From: Thermoplasmatales archaeon
GTDB taxonomy: Archaea > Thermoplasmatota > Thermoplasmata > Thermoplasmatales > Thermoplasmataceae
DNA: 64,000 nucleotides
Assembly: GCA_014874365.1 (NCBI GenBank)
Contig: JACWAH010000007.1
Location: forward strand, 1 to 64,000
Direction: 5' to 3'
Shown: one piece after another, positions 119 to 7,976 of the stretch
How positions within the stretch are numbered: position 1 is the stretch's first letter
Layout: the number at the start of each line of letters is the position of its first letter
Program-made: the position numbers and the translations under genes
The notes under the pieces: generated by a model
Database searches by the model: none
What the model was told of the DNA's origin: nothing
The model's input: only the letters and a program-made list of their open reading frames with translations

Positions 119-144
119 TGATACAATAGGGCAAAGATAGGTTC

Positions 145-584
145 TCAAGGGAATTGCCTGATTCGTTCATGATCCTGAGGACCTCGTCAAGAAGCTTTCT
201 TGAACGTTCAGGTTCATAGCCCCTCTCTATGGTCTTGTAGGAGAATTCCGACGATATCCCGAGTTTTTCTCCGAACAATCTCAGGAATCCCTCTGCTACA
301 CGGTTGGGCATGCCGAAATATACCTGCATAAGCATGACCTTTACGATGGCAGGAGCGGGGACAGGAGGCTTTCCCGCTCCCCTCTTCTTTTCCGGCATGC
401 GGGATGAGGTAATGTTCACCACATCCCTGATTGTTTCCAGCACATCGGCGATCTCGTTCGTCTGTGCCTGATCATACTGGTGCCAGTTCCTCCTCTACGC
501 CGGTTCTCGCTTCTCGTAGGGAAACGATTTATCCCGAACGGATTTCACGAGGTTCCTCAGATCCTCGACGGTCTTCCTGGACAC
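145..584 (-). pseudogene. IS5-like transposase, N-terminal part only, broken
   Basis: Read from a GTG at 584, the frame gives a basic N-terminus, then an in-frame TAG at 494-496, then a long readable stretch with RRNWxxYD just after the stop and a block of the type VAEGFLRLFGEKLGI followed by FSYKTIERGYE. That block is typical of the N-terminal region of archaeal IS5-like DDE transposases. The similarity ends near position 145, where the frame runs antisense into the gene fragment at 2-118, so the catalytic DDE part is missing. One nonsense codon plus the truncation make it a dead remnant. A TTTAAA box at 606-611 lies about 25 bases upstream of the GTG. The divergent small gene at 635 shares this promoter region. 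Confidence 0.6.
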
Positions 585-615
585 AGATATACATCACGAA
601 CAGGTTTAAATGAGT

Positions 616-633
616 ATGTGGAATACTCCACAT
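616..633. promoter_or_regulatory. Palindrome between divergent transposase and small gene (copy 1)
   Basis: ATGTGGA-ATAC-TCCACAT has perfect 7-base arms and a 4-base centre. It lies between a TTTAAA box (606-611, usable in both directions) and the ATG at 635 of the small gene, so it covers the expected transcription start. On the other side it is just upstream of the same box for the transposase at 584. The position is that of an operator. A similar 7+4+7 palindrome occurs at 6889-6906 in the same gene setting. Confidence 0.5.
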
Positions 634-634
634 A

Positions 635-939
635 ATGAATGGGACAATGATACTATTCCAGCTTCCAGAGAGAACGGATCATAATACTGTGAACAAGTTC
701 ATCCAGAAGTTCTATGGCCAGGATTCAACCTCCGGGAAAGGAAAGTACCGGTACCACAGGCATGGGTTTCTTGAAGACGTCCCCCACAGGAAGCTGTTGA
801 GGGGGGGGTAATAATACTCAGGAGCGGAGATGTTACAAAAGTACTTGATTTCCTCGGACAGTATTCCCTGACACTGCATGTGAGGGAAGTGGGATTAACG
901 AAGGATGATGAAAGTGTTTTAGGGGAGACCCACGAATAA
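635..939 (+). pseudogene. Small transposase-associated protein, copy 1, frameshifted
   Basis: Frame 1 runs from ATG 635 to TAA 809-811. The TAA directly follows a run of eight G (801-808), after which a shifted frame (from GTA 808) continues to TAA 937-939. Joined, they give about 101 residues that align along their whole length with the 102-residue protein at 6537-6845: both start with an I-L-containing strand, share a (L/F)xRxxYG-like motif, a basic middle, a (F/L)LE(D/E)(V/I)P block, a hydrophobic strand, a D-x-x-K-V helix and an acidic end. The strand/helix order suggests a ferredoxin-like fold (inference). One missing or extra G in the G-run explains the break. It could be a dead gene, a phase-variable tract or a sequence error. 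Confidence 0.55.
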
Positions 940-1020
940 TTTTGTCCCAAAGCCGTATCTTGTGCTTAGCTAATGTCTGTTCGTCATATTCCCATAACGT
1001 TTCTTTGGGGGCAGACATGC

Positions 1021-1365
1021 CTATCTGGCCCTCCTATACTTATAGAAGAGATATGCACTGGCCGGCACCACAAAGACATCAAATCCTATGTTTATCACAG
1101 AAAATACCTCGAATCCGTAAAGATGAAGCCTGACTACGGCGAGTATCGCACCTGTTAACGGGAGTATTATTCCTAAAAGGTAGAATATTTTTATTGACTT
1201 TGCCAGCCCTAAACTTATGACCAGATAAATGGTTCCAAACACAATGCCCGCAATGAGTGTGGGTGTCGTTACCTTGAGGATGAAGAGCTGTAGATAATGT
1301 ACGTACGCAGCCGTCCCTATAACTGATGCTGCTGCAACTTCAAGTTCTCTTAACTTTATCGTCAC
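1021..1365 (-). CDS. Small multi-span membrane protein, unknown function
   Basis: This encodes 114 residues. After a charged N-terminus (KLREL) there are about four hydrophobic segments (roughly residues 10-30, 37-53, 58-76 and 85-105) and a positively charged tail (YKYRRAR), so the tail is probably cytoplasmic. I recognise no family. It is the last gene of a minus-strand series that begins near 2870 (small protein, 314-residue protein, broken genes, this gene), so it may be co-transcribed with them. Confidence 0.55.
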   Translation of the reverse strand: MTIKLRELEVAAASVIGTAAYVHYLQLFILKVTTPTLIAGIVFGTIYLVISLGLAKSIKIFYLLGIILPLTGAILAVVRLHLYGFEVFSVINIGFDVFVVPASAYLFYKYRRAR

Positions 1366-1391
1366 TACTCATCAGCTTCCTTTTTTTTCCA

Positions 1392-1559
1392 TCACTCCCA
1401 TTCCACTGTAACCTTCAGTTTCTTCGGCTCCTTGGATACGAATACCGATTTCTGCACGTACAAAGTCCCTATTGAAGGTTCACCTGAAGCCTTCTCCTGG
1501 AACCTGTATGTATTCTTCGTAACCCGCTAGAACTCAAATTCTATCTCCTTCTTGTCCAC
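1392..1559 (-). pseudogene. Small 'GTLYVQK' protein, copy B, with in-frame stop
   Basis: From GTG 1559 the frame gives ten residues, an in-frame TAG at 1527-1529 (codon 11), then a readable remainder ending at TGA 1392-1394, 55 codons in all. The part after the stop contains EPSIGTLYVQKS and ends with KKLKVTVEWE. It is clearly a paralogue of the reading frame at 2709-2870, sharing the EIEF/EIEV start, RVT, the EPSIGTLYVQK core and the KVTVE/KVTAE end. Small proteins with a GTLYVQK core recur in bacteria and archaea without a known function (from memory). The stop codon makes this copy probably non-functional. Confidence 0.5.
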
Positions 1560-1565
1560 ACCACA

Positions 1566-1733
1566 TCACTTCCTTGTCCTCCTATTCCTCACTTTATTTG
1601 CATACATCTCCTGAGGATGTCATCGTTTCGACCCCCAACTTCCTCTATCTTCTGAGATGCTTTTTTCCCATTCTCCGTTGATGTGATCTCATTCACAAAA
1701 GGGGTACTTCAACCCGTCAATTTCCCGCTTCAC
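1566..1733 (-). pseudogene. Degenerate small gene directly after the 314-residue gene
   Basis: A GTG at 1733 follows the TGA of the upstream gene without a gap (TGAGTG), which suggests former translational coupling. The first twelve codons read REIDGLKYPF-like. Protein-like sequence then continues in a shifted frame (VNEITSTENGKK, KIEEVGGRNDD) and returns to the first frame for MYANKVRNRRTRK before TGA 1566-1568. In a single frame there are two internal stops; with two compensating shifts there are none. I take it as a decayed gene of about 55 codons and recognise no family. Confidence 0.35.
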
Positions 1734-2678
1734 TCATATCCACCCCCATATTTTTTCATCCAGCACTGAATAATACTCGAGCAGTGGATGCGTTTCGTGA
1801 TCAACCATGAGGGATGTCATCATGATCCTCACGTATTCATCAGCTTCTGCCGCTGGTACTAAGGTGGTATCTGTAAGTCTTCCATCATCTAAGGTCAGGA
1901 AGAATGCAATTCTTGGTATCCTTGCTTCATTCCCTCTTCTCCGCCCTTCTGCCAGTGCCTTCTCAAAGACGTAAGCCTGGTAAACATGATCCCTTTCAGA
2001 GATTATATCTATACCTTTCATTAAAACCGGAGTCGAAGTGTAGAACAATACCTTAATTTCGTTTCCTGATCCTGTCGCAGTACTCCCCTCTATTTCTGCA
2101 ACAGAATCCGGGTGGTTCTCCACCATATACTTTGCTATTTCGCTGTCTTGCGGAACCGGGACTGAATAGCGAACCACAGCAAGCGGCATGCTAGAGTGCA
2201 GTTCCTCGATTCTCTCCCTCATCGATCTGGAAAAAGTCATCTTTACCATCCTGAAGTTATCGCTGAGACCTATGACTTCGGAGAGGATGTCGTTAATCTC
2301 ATGGAGTCTGCTGCTATGGAACCTGAAGTCGAAAAAGAGCTCACCACTCATTATGTATGCATTGTTCAGTGCAACCGAAGAGACCTCAAGGAGTTTTGAT
2401 ATGATCTTCATGGACTCAACGTTGTTTATCCTCTCTGAGATTGAATTGTAGGATCGCTTTTCAACGAGATCTTTCCTGGAAAGCACAGGAGAAAGTGCAG
2501 GATTCTGTTTGATTGTCTTCTGGAAGAACATTTGCAGGTACGTTTTCTCCCCCTCATGGAAGACATAAGCTGGAACCTGCATGCCCAGCCTGGAGATGAT
2601 ATCGAATATCCCGCCGTTCTGCCTTATCGCTATGACGCATCTTCTGTCCAGCCTCGTATGTACTTCACTTATTTTCAT
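1734..2678 (-). CDS. Conserved-looking protein of unknown function, 314 residues
   Basis: This is an intact 314-residue soluble protein with no signal peptide or membrane segment. The N-terminus (CVIAIRQNGGIFDIISRLGM) could form a helix-turn-helix, but this is only a visual impression. The middle is rich in charged helices (ISERINNVESMKIISKLLEV) and the C-terminal half contains KVLFYTSTPVLMKGIDII and RIPRIAFFLTLDDGRL, suggesting an alpha/beta domain. It is bracketed by two paralogous small genes (2709-2870 and 1392-1559), which points to a mobile or duplicated cassette. I do not recognise the family. Confidence 0.6.
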   Translation of the reverse strand: MKISEVHTRLDRRCVIAIRQNGGIFDIISRLGMQVPAYVFHEGEKTYLQMFFQKTIKQNPALSPVLSRKDLVEKRSYNSISERINNVESMKIISKLLEVSSVALNNAYIMSGELFFDFRFHSSRLHEINDILSEVIGLSDNFRMVKMTFSRSMRERIEELHSSMPLAVVRYSVPVPQDSEIAKYMVENHPDSVAEIEGSTATGSGNEIKVLFYTSTPVLMKGIDIISERDHVYQAYVFEKALAEGRRRGNEARIPRIAFFLTLDDGRLTDTTLVPAAEADEYVRIMMTSLMVDHETHPLLEYYSVLDEKIWGWI

Positions 2679-2708
2679 CTATTCCACCTCATTTCCTGTT
2701 TATTATTC

Positions 2709-2870
2709 TCATTCAGCCGTAACCTTGACATTCTTAGGTTCCTTTGGCTCAAACACGGTTTTCTGCACGTACAGGGTTCCGATCGAAGGCTCTAGATGGG
2801 ATTTACCTTGTAGCCGATACGGATTCTCCGTAACTCGTTCGAACTCAACTTCTATTTCTTTATTTTCCAG
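2709..2870 (-). CDS. Small 'GTLYVQK' protein, copy A
   Basis: The frame ends at TGA 2709-2711 and can be followed upstream to about 2870, where only CTG or other weak start codons are available; no ATG, GTG or TTG is seen in frame after the previous stop. The 53 codons read LENKEIEVEFE at the start, EPSIGTLYVQK in the core and NVKVTAE at the end, matching copy B at 1392-1559. The lack of a good start may mean the 5' end is damaged. It lies 30 bases upstream of the 314-residue gene on the same strand. Function unknown. Confidence 0.4.
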   Translation of the reverse strand: MENKEIEVEFERVTENPYRLQGKSHLEPSIGTLYVQKTVFEPKEPKNVKVTAE

Positions 2871-2879
2871 TTGACCACT

Positions 2880-3156
2880 TCCCCTTTAAATTATAATGCA
2901 TGAATCATTTAAACATACCGCTTGGGATGAACTTATGATGATTTCATGTGGTCAAGAAGGCTCCGCTTACCAAGGGGGGTCAAGACAAACAAATCAGATC
3001 ATCTTATTCTAATGAGGTTGTTTATGTCAAATTATACCGCCGGTTCTAGGATTAGAGGTCGAAGCAGAATAGAACCTTCATGCTTATGGTCGGGGCTACT
3101 CTATACTCCATGAAGTTTGTTCAAGTTGATCCTTTTGATTGGAGTCAATACTTCGC
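2880..3156. other. Non-coding stretch
   Basis: Between the small gene ending upstream at 2870 and the weak small reading frame at 3157 I see no convincing coding frame, tRNA or repeat. The stretch is AT-rich, with a TTTAAA/TTAAAT cluster near 2885-2910 that could be a promoter for the minus-strand genes below it. Confidence 0.4.
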
Positions 3157-3315
3157 ATGAGTCTGCTATTGAAAAACCAACTGAAACTACAAGTACCGCA
3201 GCCACAGAGTTTGCTTGATCTCCAGATTGCCGCAAAAAATGGCAAATTGGTCACGAAAACTACCATCTCACGTCTTGTGCTCCTCTTCATCGGTTTGGAA
3301 GACATAAAAGTGTGA
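3157..3315 (+). CDS. Possible 52-residue small protein
   Basis: ATG 3157 to TGA 3313-3315 encodes 52 residues with protein-like composition (SLLDLQIAAKNGKLVTKTT then SRLVLLFIGLED). There is no clear ribosome-binding site or TATA box at the right distance, and no family is recognised. It may be a remnant of a longer gene or a chance frame. It lies just upstream of the membrane-protein gene at 3368. Confidence 0.2.
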   Translation: MSLLLKNQLKLQVPQPQSLLDLQIAAKNGKLVTKTTISRLVLLFIGLEDIKV

Positions 3316-3367
3316 GGAACCAAGAAAAAACGACTTAAAAATAAATACACTCGCTTTATTACTAGCC

Positions 3368-3802
3368 ATGGAATTTCAACTAAAGGATGGGTGGGATAGT
3401 TACTTGGGATCTGGATTTTTCCTTGGTATGTTCCTCGCGTCATTGTTCGTTATGTACGTATTTGACTCAATACCTGGATTTCCCATTAATCTATACCTCA
3501 TAGCTATGTTTATGTCTTTTGTTGTTTTCATAAGCCTCTTTGGTATGGGGTCTTACAAGCCTGCTAACACAAGCAAACCCGCTAATGTAAATAAACCTGC
3601 CAGCACAAATAATTCGCCTTCTCCCGACTTTAAGAAGGGCTATGATATGGCAAGAGATACATTCCAGTTCTCTGTACCCTGTTATGTATGTGGCCGCCCA
3701 GTCGTTATTTCAGACAAATCAAACATTTCTACGGCAGCGAAAAGTAAGTTGGAAGTCTTAAAAATACATCATAAAGAATGTCAACCTAAGGTCAAGGCAT
3801 AA
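3368..3802 (+). CDS. Two-span membrane protein with C-terminal metal-binding motif
   Basis: This encodes 144 residues. Two hydrophobic segments (about 15-32 and 40-60) are followed by a linker with three imperfect KPAN/KPAS repeats (about 66-82), then a soluble tail with CYVCGRP (about 110-116) and HHKEC (about 135-139). The CxxC plus HxxC spacing suggests a treble-clef or zinc-ribbon-like site. A TATA-like element (TAAAAATA, about 3335-3342) lies about 26 bases before the ATG, so the mRNA is probably leaderless. It looks intact, with an ISL3 element downstream. Function unknown; the C-terminal finger resembles small HNH-type or zinc-ribbon tails but lacks other nuclease residues. Confidence 0.6.
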   Translation: MEFQLKDGWDSYLGSGFFLGMFLASLFVMYVFDSIPGFPINLYLIAMFMSFVVFISLFGMGSYKPANTSKPANVNKPASTNNSPSPDFKKGYDMARDTFQFSVPCYVCGRPVVISDKSNISTAAKSKLEVLKIHHKECQPKVKA

Positions 3803-3994
3803 ATTGGATGATAACGTGGAAATTCAACAGTGACCAAAGAAAAGGATAGTATCCGGAATTTCGTGTATTTATAAATGATACATCACTTGGAACATTTCTC
3901 CACTATATTGGCTATTAGAATTACACAAGATTAGGGACGCTGTGATGTCGAGAGAACCTTCTGTTTCCATGCCTTCGCCTTTCATTATTTTTAT

Positions 3995-5262
3995 TGGATC
4001 TCTTTAACATTGTGGGGGTAACTTGAGACCTCCTGCTACAAGATATATGATCGTGTCTCGATATTTCCGGGCCTTGAACCCATAAGAACGTCTGAATGCT
4101 GTCCGGATCTTGTTGTTCAGTCCCTCAACAACAGCGGAATTTATTCCAGATTTTATTGCCTCCATGATGCCATCAAGATGCCTATTTATGGTCTTCCCAA
4201 GGTTGATGATATCTGGCATCCTTGATCGGGATGCCCATGATATCCATTTCCTCAGGTATGATTCAGCAATGCCTGCATTGATCTGCCACAATCTCTGCAG
4301 TGCGATCTTGAGGTGATATGCATGTGATGTCTGCAGATCAATGGATTTCACCGACATGAGGCGATCCCTTTCCCTGTCTGAAAGATCATCGGAATTCTTC
4401 AGCCAGTCGTACCTGGTGTGCTTGAGTATTTCATTCTCCCTTGCCTCCTTTCTCCGGATCCTGTCAAGCGCATCATTCATCATCTTTATTACATGAAAGT
4501 GATCAAAGACGATTGATGAATCTGGAAAATACTGTTGAGCGCCGGATATGTATGATGGATACATGTCCATGGTGATGTGCTCAATCTTCCTGGCATCAAG
4601 GAAGGGATTCTTCTGCATGAAATTCATGAAAACACCTGAATCCTTTCCCTCCTCGATGTGTATTACCCTGCTGTTCTTTATGTCGTAAAATAGAGTAACA
4701 TAGACATGATGCGTCTCCACCGAGAATGCGTCGATTCCAAGAACCTTCAGATCAGAGAGATCCTGCTCTTTCCTGGCATCGTCAACACAATACTTGAGGA
4801 TCCTCCAGACAGAATCCTCGTTGATTCCGACAATGCGGGAAACCGCAGATACAGGCATCTCTTTTCCCATCTCCACTACCATCGCTTCAAAGTGCAGCGA
4901 GAATCCAGATCCCTTTCTTGCCCAAGGCAGATAGACTGTCTTCTTTCCATGCTCATTGCATCTTATTCTCGGTTCCCCTTGCATGCACTTATGTGGGATA
5001 CTGGAATACGTTCAGATGCCTCCATGTGCGTTCCTCGGTGTCATGGACTCCACACTGCAATCCACAGACAGGGCATGGAAATTTAGATCCTCTTGGGAAA
5101 TCTATGAAGATATCAACCCTCTTTTCCTGGTGATCGAACTTTATTTCCTTAATGATCCACGGCTCCTCTAAACCTAGAAGTCTCCTGAACAGTTCCTCAG
5201 GATTCATAAAATGTAAATGAGTGTGGGTATATTATTTGCCCCCAAAGAGTTCAAGGGATCCA
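3995..5262 (-). mobile_element. ISL3-family insertion sequence
   Basis: The element is about 1.27 kb. The left end (GGATCTCTTTAACATTGTGG then GGGTAA, from 3996) and the reverse complement of the right end (GGATCCCTTGAACTCTTTGG then GGGCAA, to 5261) match at about 19 of 25 core positions, an imperfect terminal inverted repeat. It contains a single ISL3-like transposase gene broken by a frameshift. No 8-base target duplication is visible next to the ends, so either the duplication has decayed or the flank has recombined. Confidence 0.7.
4004..5207 (-). pseudogene. ISL3-family transposase, split by a frameshift
   Basis: The first frame (ATG 5207 to TAA 4989-4991, 72 residues) carries the ISL3 N-terminal zinc motif CPVCGLQC and ERTWRHLNVFQY. 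The second frame (usable ATG 4984, stop 4004-4006, 326 residues) begins near CNEHG, completing the zinc motif, and continues with the DDE_Tnp_ISL3 catalytic domain: GIDAFS, MDMYPSY, VFDHFHVIKMMN and, near the end, NSAVVEGLNNKIR (the ISL3 E motif). The two halves differ by one base in phase around 4985-4995. Unless rescued by frameshifting, the product is inactive. The stop codon lies inside the left terminal repeat. Confidence 0.75.
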
Positions 5263-5277
5263 TATATGAAAGATAAA

Positions 5278-5580
5278 TCACAAACTATGTATTATAGCTG
5301 GTCTAACTATCTTTATGTTTTTTTTGCTTGGCAATTGAGCCGCCAATTTGAACATCTGTTTCACGTTCGCATTCATTTTCTTTTCTAGGATTCTTGCGCC
5401 AAAGGCCTGCTTCTCCTTCAAATATTCATGAGCAAAAGACCTACTCACAAACTCAATGTCAGAAAAATCAAGAACAAAAACTTTACTTTTTCTTTCGGCC
5501 AGAGAGTTGAAAAGTTCCTCGGCCCATGACCTCAGCGCCAAGTCTCGCACATCTAACAACTTTGCGACTTTTACTTCCAT
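5278..5580 (-). CDS. STAS-like protein (DUF4325-type)
   Basis: A 100-residue protein whose core FVLDFSDIEFVSRSFAHEYL (about 35-54) is the hallmark of the STAS-like DUF4325 family: a buried strand, a D-I-x-F-x-S loop and a following helix. Such proteins are usually encoded next to a GHKL-type ATP-binding protein, as here (the gene at 5628-6449, 47 bases upstream on the same strand). By analogy with SpoIIAA/RsbV partner-switching systems it may be a phosphorylatable or switchable antagonist bound by the ATPase; that role is inferred. The gene is AT-rich and flanked by IS elements on both sides, suggesting recent gain. Confidence 0.65.
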   Translation of the reverse strand: MEVKVAKLLDVRDLALRSWAEELFNSLAERKSKVFVLDFSDIEFVSRSFAHEYLKEKQAFGARILEKKMNANVKQMFKLAAQLPSKKNIKIVRPAIIHSL

Positions 5581-5627
5581 GGCTAGTCAGCCTTACTAGT
5601 GATTAAAACCATTGTATTTCAATATGA

Positions 5628-6449
5628 TCATCCTAGGTACTGGTAAATTTCAATGTTATTTTTCTTCAAAGGAATTCTTATGCTTATGAGGGTACCGGGA
5701 AATTTCTGTTGTTCTTCAAGTCGATATAGCTGCGTTTCTTGAGATTTTTTATAATAGAGTCCCTTTCTGGACACAATCATCGCTTCTGCATCAGCTCCTT
5801 CACAGTATATCTTGAGCGAACTTATGAGTCCTGTACCCCTCTCATAATCATTTTTAGTAGACTTCCCACCAACCGCCATTGATATTGCATTCCAGTCTCC
5901 TTCAAAAGAAATTTTATGTTTTTCGAAATTACCTGGTATCGAAATACCGTCATCAATGAAGGATAGTTCAACATATCCTTGATTTTTGTATGCCTGTCCC
6001 ATCATGTACGAATTTTCAAAGTTAGAATGTTGATAGACGTTATCGGTTAGCTCGCTCAGGACATATTTAAATGCCTCCTCTCCTCCACTTGGCTTATGTG
6101 ATTTTATCAAATCACTTATCTTTGCAAATAGAATTCTAAAATCTTCTTCTTCTTTAGGGAGTTCTGAAAAAGGTATGTATGAGTTTCCCTTGCTCAAGAT
6201 CACCTTTAATCCTTTGGCCCACCACATTGGGTCTTGTGTCATTAGATCTAGATATCCTTTCGCGTTGCTACTACCTGTGGAATGTAATGCACAACCATAC
6301 TTCGTTCTAAGATAAGCCAGCAATAGAACACTGGTAGAACTCAACCACTTTCTGTCCTTCAGATCAACGATGCTTTCACCCTTAGCTTGATTCCTAAAAT
6401 CCACGAACTCTGAGTATGACGAGATAAGTTCAGGCAGCTGAGGAGGCAT
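5628..6449 (-). CDS. STAS-like domain fused to a GHKL (histidine-kinase-type) ATPase
   Basis: 273 residues. The N-terminal 75 or so contain a STAS-like pattern (IVDLKDRKWLSSTSVLLLAY). The C-terminal part has the GHKL ATP site: N-box ELTDNVYQHS (about 133-142, Mg ligand Asn137), G1 box FIDDGISIP (about 164-172) and G2 box ERGTGL (about 203-208). No phospho-acceptor His box is visible, so it is not a classical sensor kinase; an RsbW/SpoIIAB-like kinase or ATP-dependent switch is more likely. A TATA box about 24 bases before ATG 6449 implies a leaderless transcript shared with the STAS-like gene downstream. No sigma factor exists in archaea, so the output target is unknown; defence or stress signalling is possible. 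Confidence 0.65.
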   Translation of the reverse strand: MPPQLPELISSYSEFVDFRNQAKGESIVDLKDRKWLSSTSVLLLAYLRTKYGCALHSTGSSNAKGYLDLMTQDPMWWAKGLKVILSKGNSYIPFSELPKEEEDFRILFAKISDLIKSHKPSGGEEAFKYVLSELTDNVYQHSNFENSYMMGQAYKNQGYVELSFIDDGISIPGNFEKHKISFEGDWNAISMAVGGKSTKNDYERGTGLISSLKIYCEGADAEAMIVSRKGLYYKKSQETQLYRLEEQQKFPGTLISIRIPLKKNNIEIYQYLG

Positions 6450-6465
6450 AGTGTTTAATCTTGTT

Positions 6466-6481
6466 GGTTTATATATTATTT
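6466..6481 (-). promoter_or_regulatory. TATA box of the STAS/GHKL operon
   Basis: On the minus strand the sequence reads AAATAATATATAAACC, centred about 24 bases before ATG 6449. This fits an archaeal TATA box driving a leaderless mRNA. Confidence 0.45.
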
Positions 6482-6536
6482 ACATTTGTCTTCCATTGTC
6501 GTCGGGAGTTCTGTGTTGAACAAATATATAAATGGG

Positions 6537-6845
6537 TTATAGCTTGAGAAGCCTCATCTCCTCATCGTCTGGAATCACTTTCCATACCCTGTAATCAGCT
6601 CCGTATTCACTGATCATATCCTTCACTTTTTCAAGGTCTGTCTCCCTTATCATTATCATGCCCTTCTCATACCTGACGGAGGGTATCTCCTCAAGCAAAC
6701 CTTTCTTGCGCTTATTGTACTGGTTATAGTTTGAGTGCGTTTCGTATCCGTACAGTCTCCTGAACAGTGAGTTCACCCTGCTCTTTCGTTTCTTCATGCT
6801 GTTCCTGTAGGGTGCGTGTATCCTGACAAGTATTGTTGTTTCCAT
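6537..6845 (-). CDS. Small transposase-associated protein, copy 2 (intact)
   Basis: 102 residues from ATG 6845; a longer TTG-start version is possible but a TATA-like ATATAAAC lies about 25 bases before this ATG, fitting a leaderless start. Visible order: strand (TTILVRI), basic helix (KKRKSRVNSLFRRLYGYE), basic middle (YNKRKKGLLEEIP), strand (KGMIMIRE), helix (LEKVKDMISEYGA), strand (YRVWKVI), acidic tail. This resembles a ferredoxin-like fold as seen in many small nucleic-acid-binding proteins, but no known family is recognised. It aligns along its whole length with the frameshifted gene at 635-939. It is divergent from an IS5-like transposase with a palindrome between them, so a role in transposition or its regulation is likely (inference). 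Confidence 0.6.
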   Translation of the reverse strand: METTILVRIHAPYRNSMKKRKSRVNSLFRRLYGYETHSNYNQYNKRKKGLLEEIPSVRYEKGMIMIRETDLEKVKDMISEYGADYRVWKVIPDDEEMRLLKL

Positions 6846-6888
6846 GAAAGAACAACACAAAACAGTTTATATGCTTTCTTTCCATAAT

Positions 6889-6906
6889 ACGGTGGTATAC
6901 CACCGT
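6889..6906. promoter_or_regulatory. Palindrome between divergent transposase and small gene (copy 2)
   Basis: ACGGTGG-TATA-CCACCGT is a perfect 18-base palindrome. It sits about 18-36 bases before the transposase ATG (6925), overlapping where that gene's TATA box should be, and about 44 bases before the small gene's ATG (6845), just upstream of its TATA box. It shares the GTGG...ATAC...CCAC core and the 7+4+7 layout with the palindrome at 616-633. A repressor-type operator controlling the transposase is the simplest reading. Confidence 0.5.
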
Positions 6907-6924
6907 CTTTAACAGGGGAATAAA

Positions 6925-7870
6925 ATGTCGAAATGGGGGTAACCTTACAAGGACAGGAGAAACTGGAAGGAATACAACGAGGAGCTCGTGATAAGGGGCA
7001 CGTTCTTCTTCGATCTTGATTTCGCCAGGAAGTGGGATTCAGGATTGAAAAGAATGAATGGCGGAAAGGGGGGATCTCCCCATCTATTCTCCGATTCATT
7101 CATGAAGTTCATGATGATCTGGCACCAGTTCCTGGACTACCGTGCACTTGAAGGCATGGCAAGATCACTTGTGAACATGGGAATAAAACCCCAATATGGC
7201 GATTACACCACCATATGGCACGGCATCCATGACAAGATGCCTGTTATCGATATCTCAGGCCTGAGATATACTGAACCCGGCACAGATGGCACTGGAATGA
7301 AGACAAACAATGCGGGATCGTACAGGATCATGAAATACGGTGATCCGGTTGCGAAGAGGAGGAAGCACCTTATCATCATAATAACCGCTGATGTCAGGAC
7401 AAAGAATATCATCGGGATTGAATCACACATTGAGGGCAACGGATTGCCAGAACCTGAAACTGCAGGTAAACACATAACGGAAGCGGTCATGAAAGGCGTC
7501 ACCGTGAGGGAATTCTATGGTGACGGAGCATCGATGTCAATAATCTATTCAACATGGCGCACTCCATCGGTGCAAAATCCATCATAAAGATCAGGAAGAA
7601 CGCCTCCGCTGACCGATACAGCGGAAGCAAGTACAGGAGGAGAGCCATAAGGAAAACCAGGACAGGGGATACGGAAAGTGGGCAGAGGAGAACCGTTATG
7701 GCATGAGGTGGCCGGGAACAGAAGGCATATTCTCCGCCGTTAAGAGGAAATTTGGTGAGAACTGTGTCAGCAGATCCAGTGAAGGCCTGGCGGCAGAAGG
7801 ATGCCAGAGATTGGGGGTATACGATTATATAAATCAGGGAGCGAAGGAGGAGGTAAAGGCACTGAACTGA
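6925..7870 (+). pseudogene. IS5-like transposase with several disabling changes
   Basis: ATG 6925 is followed by an in-frame TAA at codon 6 (6940-6942). The same frame then continues as PYKDRRNWKEYNEEL, a typical start of archaeal IS5-like transposases, through the DDE-type core (GTDGTGMKT, IIGIESHIEG, EFYGDGA). Around 7531 one base is missing and the protein continues in another frame as DVNNLFNMAHSIGAKSIIK. A second shift near 7660-7675 leads to the C-terminus RYGMRWPGTEGIFSAVKRKF and TGA 7868-7870. One nonsense codon and two frameshifts make it inactive. No terminal inverted repeats could be identified by eye. The RRNWxxY motif is shared with the remnant at 145-584. Confidence 0.75.
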
Positions 7871-7976
7871 TCAAAAAACGGGGGAAAAATGGAAAACGAT
7901 CAGAAAAAGAGCAGGCGTTGGAGGGAATTGTTAAATAGAGCAGAACCTTAATAGATATGCACGGCACCTGCATTTC

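Follow-up and report, generated by a model that had tools for sequence, protein, structure and literature searches.

Why should two decayed insertion sequences of an archaeon each pair their transposase gene with a divergent gene for a protein of about 100 residues (SP), with a palindrome lying between the two? Both stand at the left contig end in an archaeal genome of 1.48 Mb related to Thermoplasmatales, within the 64,000-nucleotide stretch analysed here (the window). The original prediction saw in them one recurrent module, in which a small protein controls the transposase through the palindrome.

The first element (about 135-954) retains the 5' part only of an IS5-like group A transposase gene (135-605, minus strand, identified by HMM matches), which is decayed and frameshifted, contains one TGA and one TAG codon and is 81% identical to residues 1-155 of a transposase from E-plasma (G070). 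The assignment of group A to IS5 is tentative, as the best match of the intact relative L040, IS5_2, reaches 61 bits against a cut-off of 140, with IS1182 weaker still. The divergent genes have in common a predicted TATA-like box (TTTAAAT, 605-611), located at the same position in relatives, and palindrome 1 (TATGTGGAATACTCCACATA, 615-634, core 616-633; p = 0.03 against shuffles) is flanked by this box on one side and by the SP start on the other. The SP gene (635-939, plus strand, recognised from its sequence and family matches) begins with the ATG at 635 and is frameshifted in a G-run near 801-808, the reading frame resuming at 784-939. A terminal inverted repeat (AATAATTTTGTCCCAAAGCC, 935-954), which matches that of the multi-copy E-plasma element, places one end of the element at 954; the opposite end is lost.

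In the second element (about 6510-7942) the SP gene is intact (6537-6845, minus strand, an open reading frame of 102 codons for amino acids). It is preceded at about 24 nt by a predicted TATA-like box (TTTATAT, 6866-6872), and palindrome 2 (AATACGGTGGTATACCACCGTCTT, 6886-6909; p = 0.01, the floor of the test), whose core at 6889-6906 is a perfect dyad, separates this box from the start of an IS5 group B transposase pseudogene (6925-7870, plus strand). Codon 6 of the pseudogene is TAA (6940-6942), and frameshifts follow further on. Membership of group B in IS5 is borne out by the intact relative L011, which scores 153 bits with NF033579 against a curated cut-off of 140. Terminal inverted repeats lie on the SP side (CTGTGTTGAACAAATATA, 6511-6528; TGCTSTGTTGAACAAATA in group B relatives, with homology ending at 6507-6511) and on the transposase side (TGCTCTATTTAACAATT on the minus strand, 7926-7942). 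Each of the two palindromes is the sole such site in the window at up to three mismatches, where chance predicts 0.00-0.01.

The two loci thus do share SP, a palindrome and a divergent IS5-like transposase, as had been proposed, but the palindrome is placed differently, between TATA-like box and SP in copy 1 and between transposase and TATA-like box in copy 2. Likewise, the palindrome cores had been located correctly, but the ATAC centre ascribed to both does not hold for palindrome 2, which is centred on TATA. Both transposases are dead, the one truncated and frameshifted, the other by its early stop and later frameshifts, and the loci are partly decayed copies of two-gene insertion sequences. 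Elsewhere in the window, positions 4004-5207 hold a transposase gene of the ISL3 family (326 aa, above the cut-off), preceded by a 72-aa ORF that resembles a split-off N-terminal portion of it, and between both elements (5278-6449) a STAS-like 100-aa ORF was noted by eye beside a 273-aa ORF for a histidine-kinase-type ATPase.

The ends of intact relatives place the SP gene inside the insertion sequence. In E-plasma an element of 1493 bp, bounded by the terminal repeats GGCTTTGGGACAATATTATT / GGTTTTGGGACAAAATTATT, is present in four near-identical copies, of which two show clear 9-bp target duplications (GGCATCTTA, TATTGCTAC). It encodes a transposase of 374 aa and, divergently, an SP of 100 aa. 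In group B relatives SP lies within the terminal repeats TGCTSTGTTGAACAAATA, flanked by target duplications GAATCTGAG, CATTCGCGA and ACTATTCCA, and in the IS1634 group, judged by terminal repeats, it is internal as well. The SP stop codon of intact relatives is mostly 21-70 bp away from the element end or terminal inverted repeat. SP is an internal accessory gene that is copied with the element. One E-plasma element copy (L039, 21-751) adjoins a CRISPR-array-like array of repeats of about 31 bp every 67 bp. Multi-copy fragments of 34-36 C-terminal SP residues, considered as MITEs, proved to be contig ends within repeated IS copies, and loci L018 and L044, whose flanks are identical and which contain an N gap, are one duplicated stretch rather than independent copies.

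The two SP sequences of the window match each other directly at 28% identity over 39 residues. This match is short; the two are firmly linked because the family joins them, 62 of its 81 ORFs being matched in phmmer by both queries, so that their homology stands as predicted, and so do their coordinates. The phenomenon is wider than these two loci. Of 400 genomes from the class, 80 have SP by profile search, as do 13 genomes from elsewhere in the phylum, and many mobile elements of Thermoplasmata-type archaea carry it; the protein is spread across Thermoplasmata and is also present on named contigs of ANME-2/Methanosarcina-type (Methanosarcinaceae) and Aenigmatarchaeota MAGs. Near-identical copies in two bacterial MAGs may be binning errors. 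SP matches no family in Pfam, PHROG or NCBIfam, gave nothing significant against the sequences of solved structures, and was not found among viral contigs, phages and plasmids. A homologous domain forms the C-terminal part of MntA-like nucleotidyltransferases (hhalign probability 98%); these enzymes (L111-L118, L121-L123) are encoded away from transposases, in an architecture that is undescribed as far as searched. A cellular branch of the family is represented in two Aenigmatarchaeota genomes (L195; L196, 2941-3240) by an SP relative directly upstream of a Cdc48 gene.

Is the transposase then the regular partner of SP? A transposase adjoins SP in 77 of the 97 loci with readable context, a count that includes near-copies and one locus (L065) added by hand, so that homologues do not lie mostly away from transposases. 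In 72 loci the transposase is divergent (group A, IS5/IS1182-like, 42; group B, IS5, 20; IS1634, 10), and in five it belongs to IS66, four of these having a co-directional SP gene directly upstream, which overlaps the transposase gene in L058, L065, L068 and L054, and one (L224) being arranged tail-to-tail. The family labels are supported by scores of 190, 354 and 265 bits for IS1634 (L024, L143 and L129; cut-off 100) and of 240 bits for IS66 (L068; cut-off 180). When the neighbours of free-standing SP genes were clustered, transposases again stood out as the main class to recur. Conversely, all close group A and B transposase relatives examined that have an intact 5' end carry SP, which was absent from the distant IS5 relatives examined (25-32% identity) and from one IS1634 relative (L303). 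Distances between SPs correlate with those between transposases within groups (Mantel r = 0.81, 0.29 and 0.70; p ≤ 0.0014). The claim that the small protein travels with its transposase is upheld by this co-inheritance and by its position inside the element. In addition, judging from the sequences, SP has been exchanged between IS5-like, IS1634 and IS66 transposase families, since the SP tree, which is built on few columns and unsure in its branch details, needs at least seven changes of transposase family, at least four of them forced for the IS1634 label. Two other contexts were seen: in L108 (1805-3998) SP lies between a tnpA and a tnpB that look IS607-type, perhaps via nested insertion, and in L227 the SP gene, with a palindrome before it, is followed on the same strand by a gene for a 465-aa WYL-domain protein (355-1749).

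The palindromes likewise recur in other copies, and they keep a fixed distance from start codons. Judged at each locus against 100 dinucleotide shuffles, the palindrome reaches p ≤ 0.05 in 42 of 87 loci (about 4 expected), 23 of them at the floor; about half of the loci miss this level, some of which hold weaker palindromes at the expected place. A comparison of palindromes as 22-mers in fixed register was too rigid because their spacing varies. The order in group A and IS1634 elements is TATA-like box, a few nucleotides, palindrome and SP ATG (TTTAAATAG-TTATGTGGACTATTCCACATAA-TG), and in group B elements transposase start, palindrome, TATA-like box and, after about 25 nt, SP ATG, whereas in IS66 loci the palindrome (ATACTGAA-CTGTGT-TTCAGTAT) immediately precedes the SP start. 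The arms differ greatly between subfamilies, yet the symmetry is retained, and arm divergence correlates with SP divergence (r = 0.48-0.63), a correlation that shared descent alone could produce. Each strand of the E-plasma element contains the half-site a single time, and nowhere but in the palindrome. The TATA-like consensus is found about 24-32 nt ahead of the SP start, a position that suggests leaderless transcripts and hence that the palindrome is read as DNA and not as RNA.

As had been proposed, the structure of SP was predicted, and AlphaFold2 confidently yields a ferredoxin-like fold (pLDDT 88 and 92). The predicted structure has no significant match in structure comparison (best E 0.02), and none of the known DNA-binding motifs, the helix-turn-helix included, was found. 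The protein is basic (median isoelectric point 9.5), with a basic helix 1 and with conserved lysine or arginine residues in this helix and the hairpin after it; no conserved catalytic residues are apparent. Selection on SP is purifying (dN/dS 0.04-0.25). This holds also for two pairs of solo copies, each of which occupies, without a transposase, a conserved, syntenic place in a species pair, L050 (2022-2330) / L232 (318-620) with dN/dS 0.12 and L137 (1621-1923) / L142 (2372-2674) with dN/dS 0.08. In L131, L137 and L142 the palindrome is retained at the start codon. The solo copies hint that SP is retained by hosts.

Taken together, we consider it probable, at roughly two chances in three, that SP is a DNA-binding autorepressor of the divergent promoter common to SP and transposase, analogous to TnpR of Tn3. 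SP would most likely bind the palindrome as a symmetric dimer. As the palindrome lies in the space that separates the TATA-like box from one of the gene starts, that of SP in group A and IS1634 and that of the transposase in group B, bound SP would block TBP, TFB or RNA polymerase at the shared promoter and so repress both the transposase and itself. The expected outcome would be a burst of transposition upon arrival in a new cell and low transposition afterwards; SP and palindrome look like a built-in, portable on/off control of transposition.

But could SP serve transposition itself, like TnpB of IS66, as part of a DNA-protein complex or in target or end recognition, with the palindrome needed only for SP autoregulation or as a site for the transpososome? 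Its constancy as partner of close group A and B transposases would fit such a role, and its overlapping, co-directional position before IS66 transposases, the place of the bacterial TnpB, fits an accessory role equally well; TnpB_IS66 was not found in the order. However, an exchange among IS5-like, IS1634 and IS66 transposases is harder to reconcile with a specific complex subunit, the palindrome is located at promoters, its half-site is confined to it in the E-plasma element, and solo SP copies are retained without a transposase. We thus regard this explanation as unlikely; its main support is the IS66 arrangement.

The link to nucleotidyltransferases raises the further question whether SP is a passenger unrelated to transposition, for instance a component of some stress system, of toxin-antitoxin or nucleotidyltransferase type, by which the element is stabilised. 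The homologous MntA-like domain and the solo branch upstream of Cdc48 point that way, but in the insertion sequences SP is alone, lacks an enzyme partner and apparent conserved catalytic residues, and the fixed palindrome in the promoter common with the transposase would be left unexplained, which makes the passenger role improbable. Still less would we expect the palindrome to be an RNA hairpin, or a site for the transposase or a host protein, with SP uninvolved. Inverted repeats near start codons could be so read; then again, in many of them the dyad symmetry runs through the centre without a loop, unlike an RNA hairpin, they precede the predicted leaderless start, bear no resemblance to the terminal repeats, and accompany SP with different transposase families and also before solo SP genes. 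SP and palindrome may even be a plug-in transcription cassette passed among at least four groups of archaeal DDE transposases, with the solo SPs as host-kept repressors that silence related elements in trans, an extension that we put forward tentatively and hold to be possible rather than probable.

Transposon-encoded regulators are already known; to our knowledge, little is known about the control of archaeal insertion sequences. The open-licence papers searched contain no description of the SP family, its predicted operator or its exchange among IS families, in line with the original prediction, which knew of no such module; within these papers all three are new, and SP is an undescribed family as far as this literature goes. 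One SP family with a readable predicted operator across transposase families makes repression, specificity and silencing in trans directly testable with short DNA and a 100-residue protein, and, if true, palindrome binding by a predicted ferredoxin-like fold that lacks a helix-turn-helix would be an uncommon mode for an archaeal regulator.

How does SP compare with known proteins and systems? Its predicted topology is similar to that of ferredoxin-like folds, with Cas2 among the nearer structures (TM about 0.45-0.5); the homology to Cas2 that this suggested was rejected by profiles (hhalign probability 1.1%). In the MntA-like archaeal nucleotidyltransferases the homologous domain is fused to an enzyme domain and, unlike SP, is not found beside transposases. 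In bacterial IS66 elements TnpB is encoded upstream of the transposase and co-directionally. SP resembles it as a small protein encoded directly upstream of the IS66 transposase, but differs from it in being mostly divergent from transposases of other families, and homology was rejected because none of 36 members gave a PF05717 match at E ≤ 1. In Tn3, TnpR is encoded by a divergent partner gene of the transposase, its binding sites lie in the shared promoter region and both genes are autoregulated (PMC7157771). SP shares with TnpR/res the divergent partner gene and sites, here predicted to be bound, in the shared promoter region. However, TnpR belongs to the serine recombinases, res is a site of recombination, and the promoters are bacterial, whereas SP, at about 100 aa, bears no sign of a recombinase, matches no such regulator in Pfam or NCBIfam and is unrelated to TnpR by family searches. 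According to PMC2266710, most IS families had at that time seldom been observed to carry additional genes. With IS5, IS1634 and IS66 the SP elements share transposase families (IS5-like in the case of group A), terminal repeats and target duplications, to which they add a regulator-like gene and a predicted operator-like palindrome.
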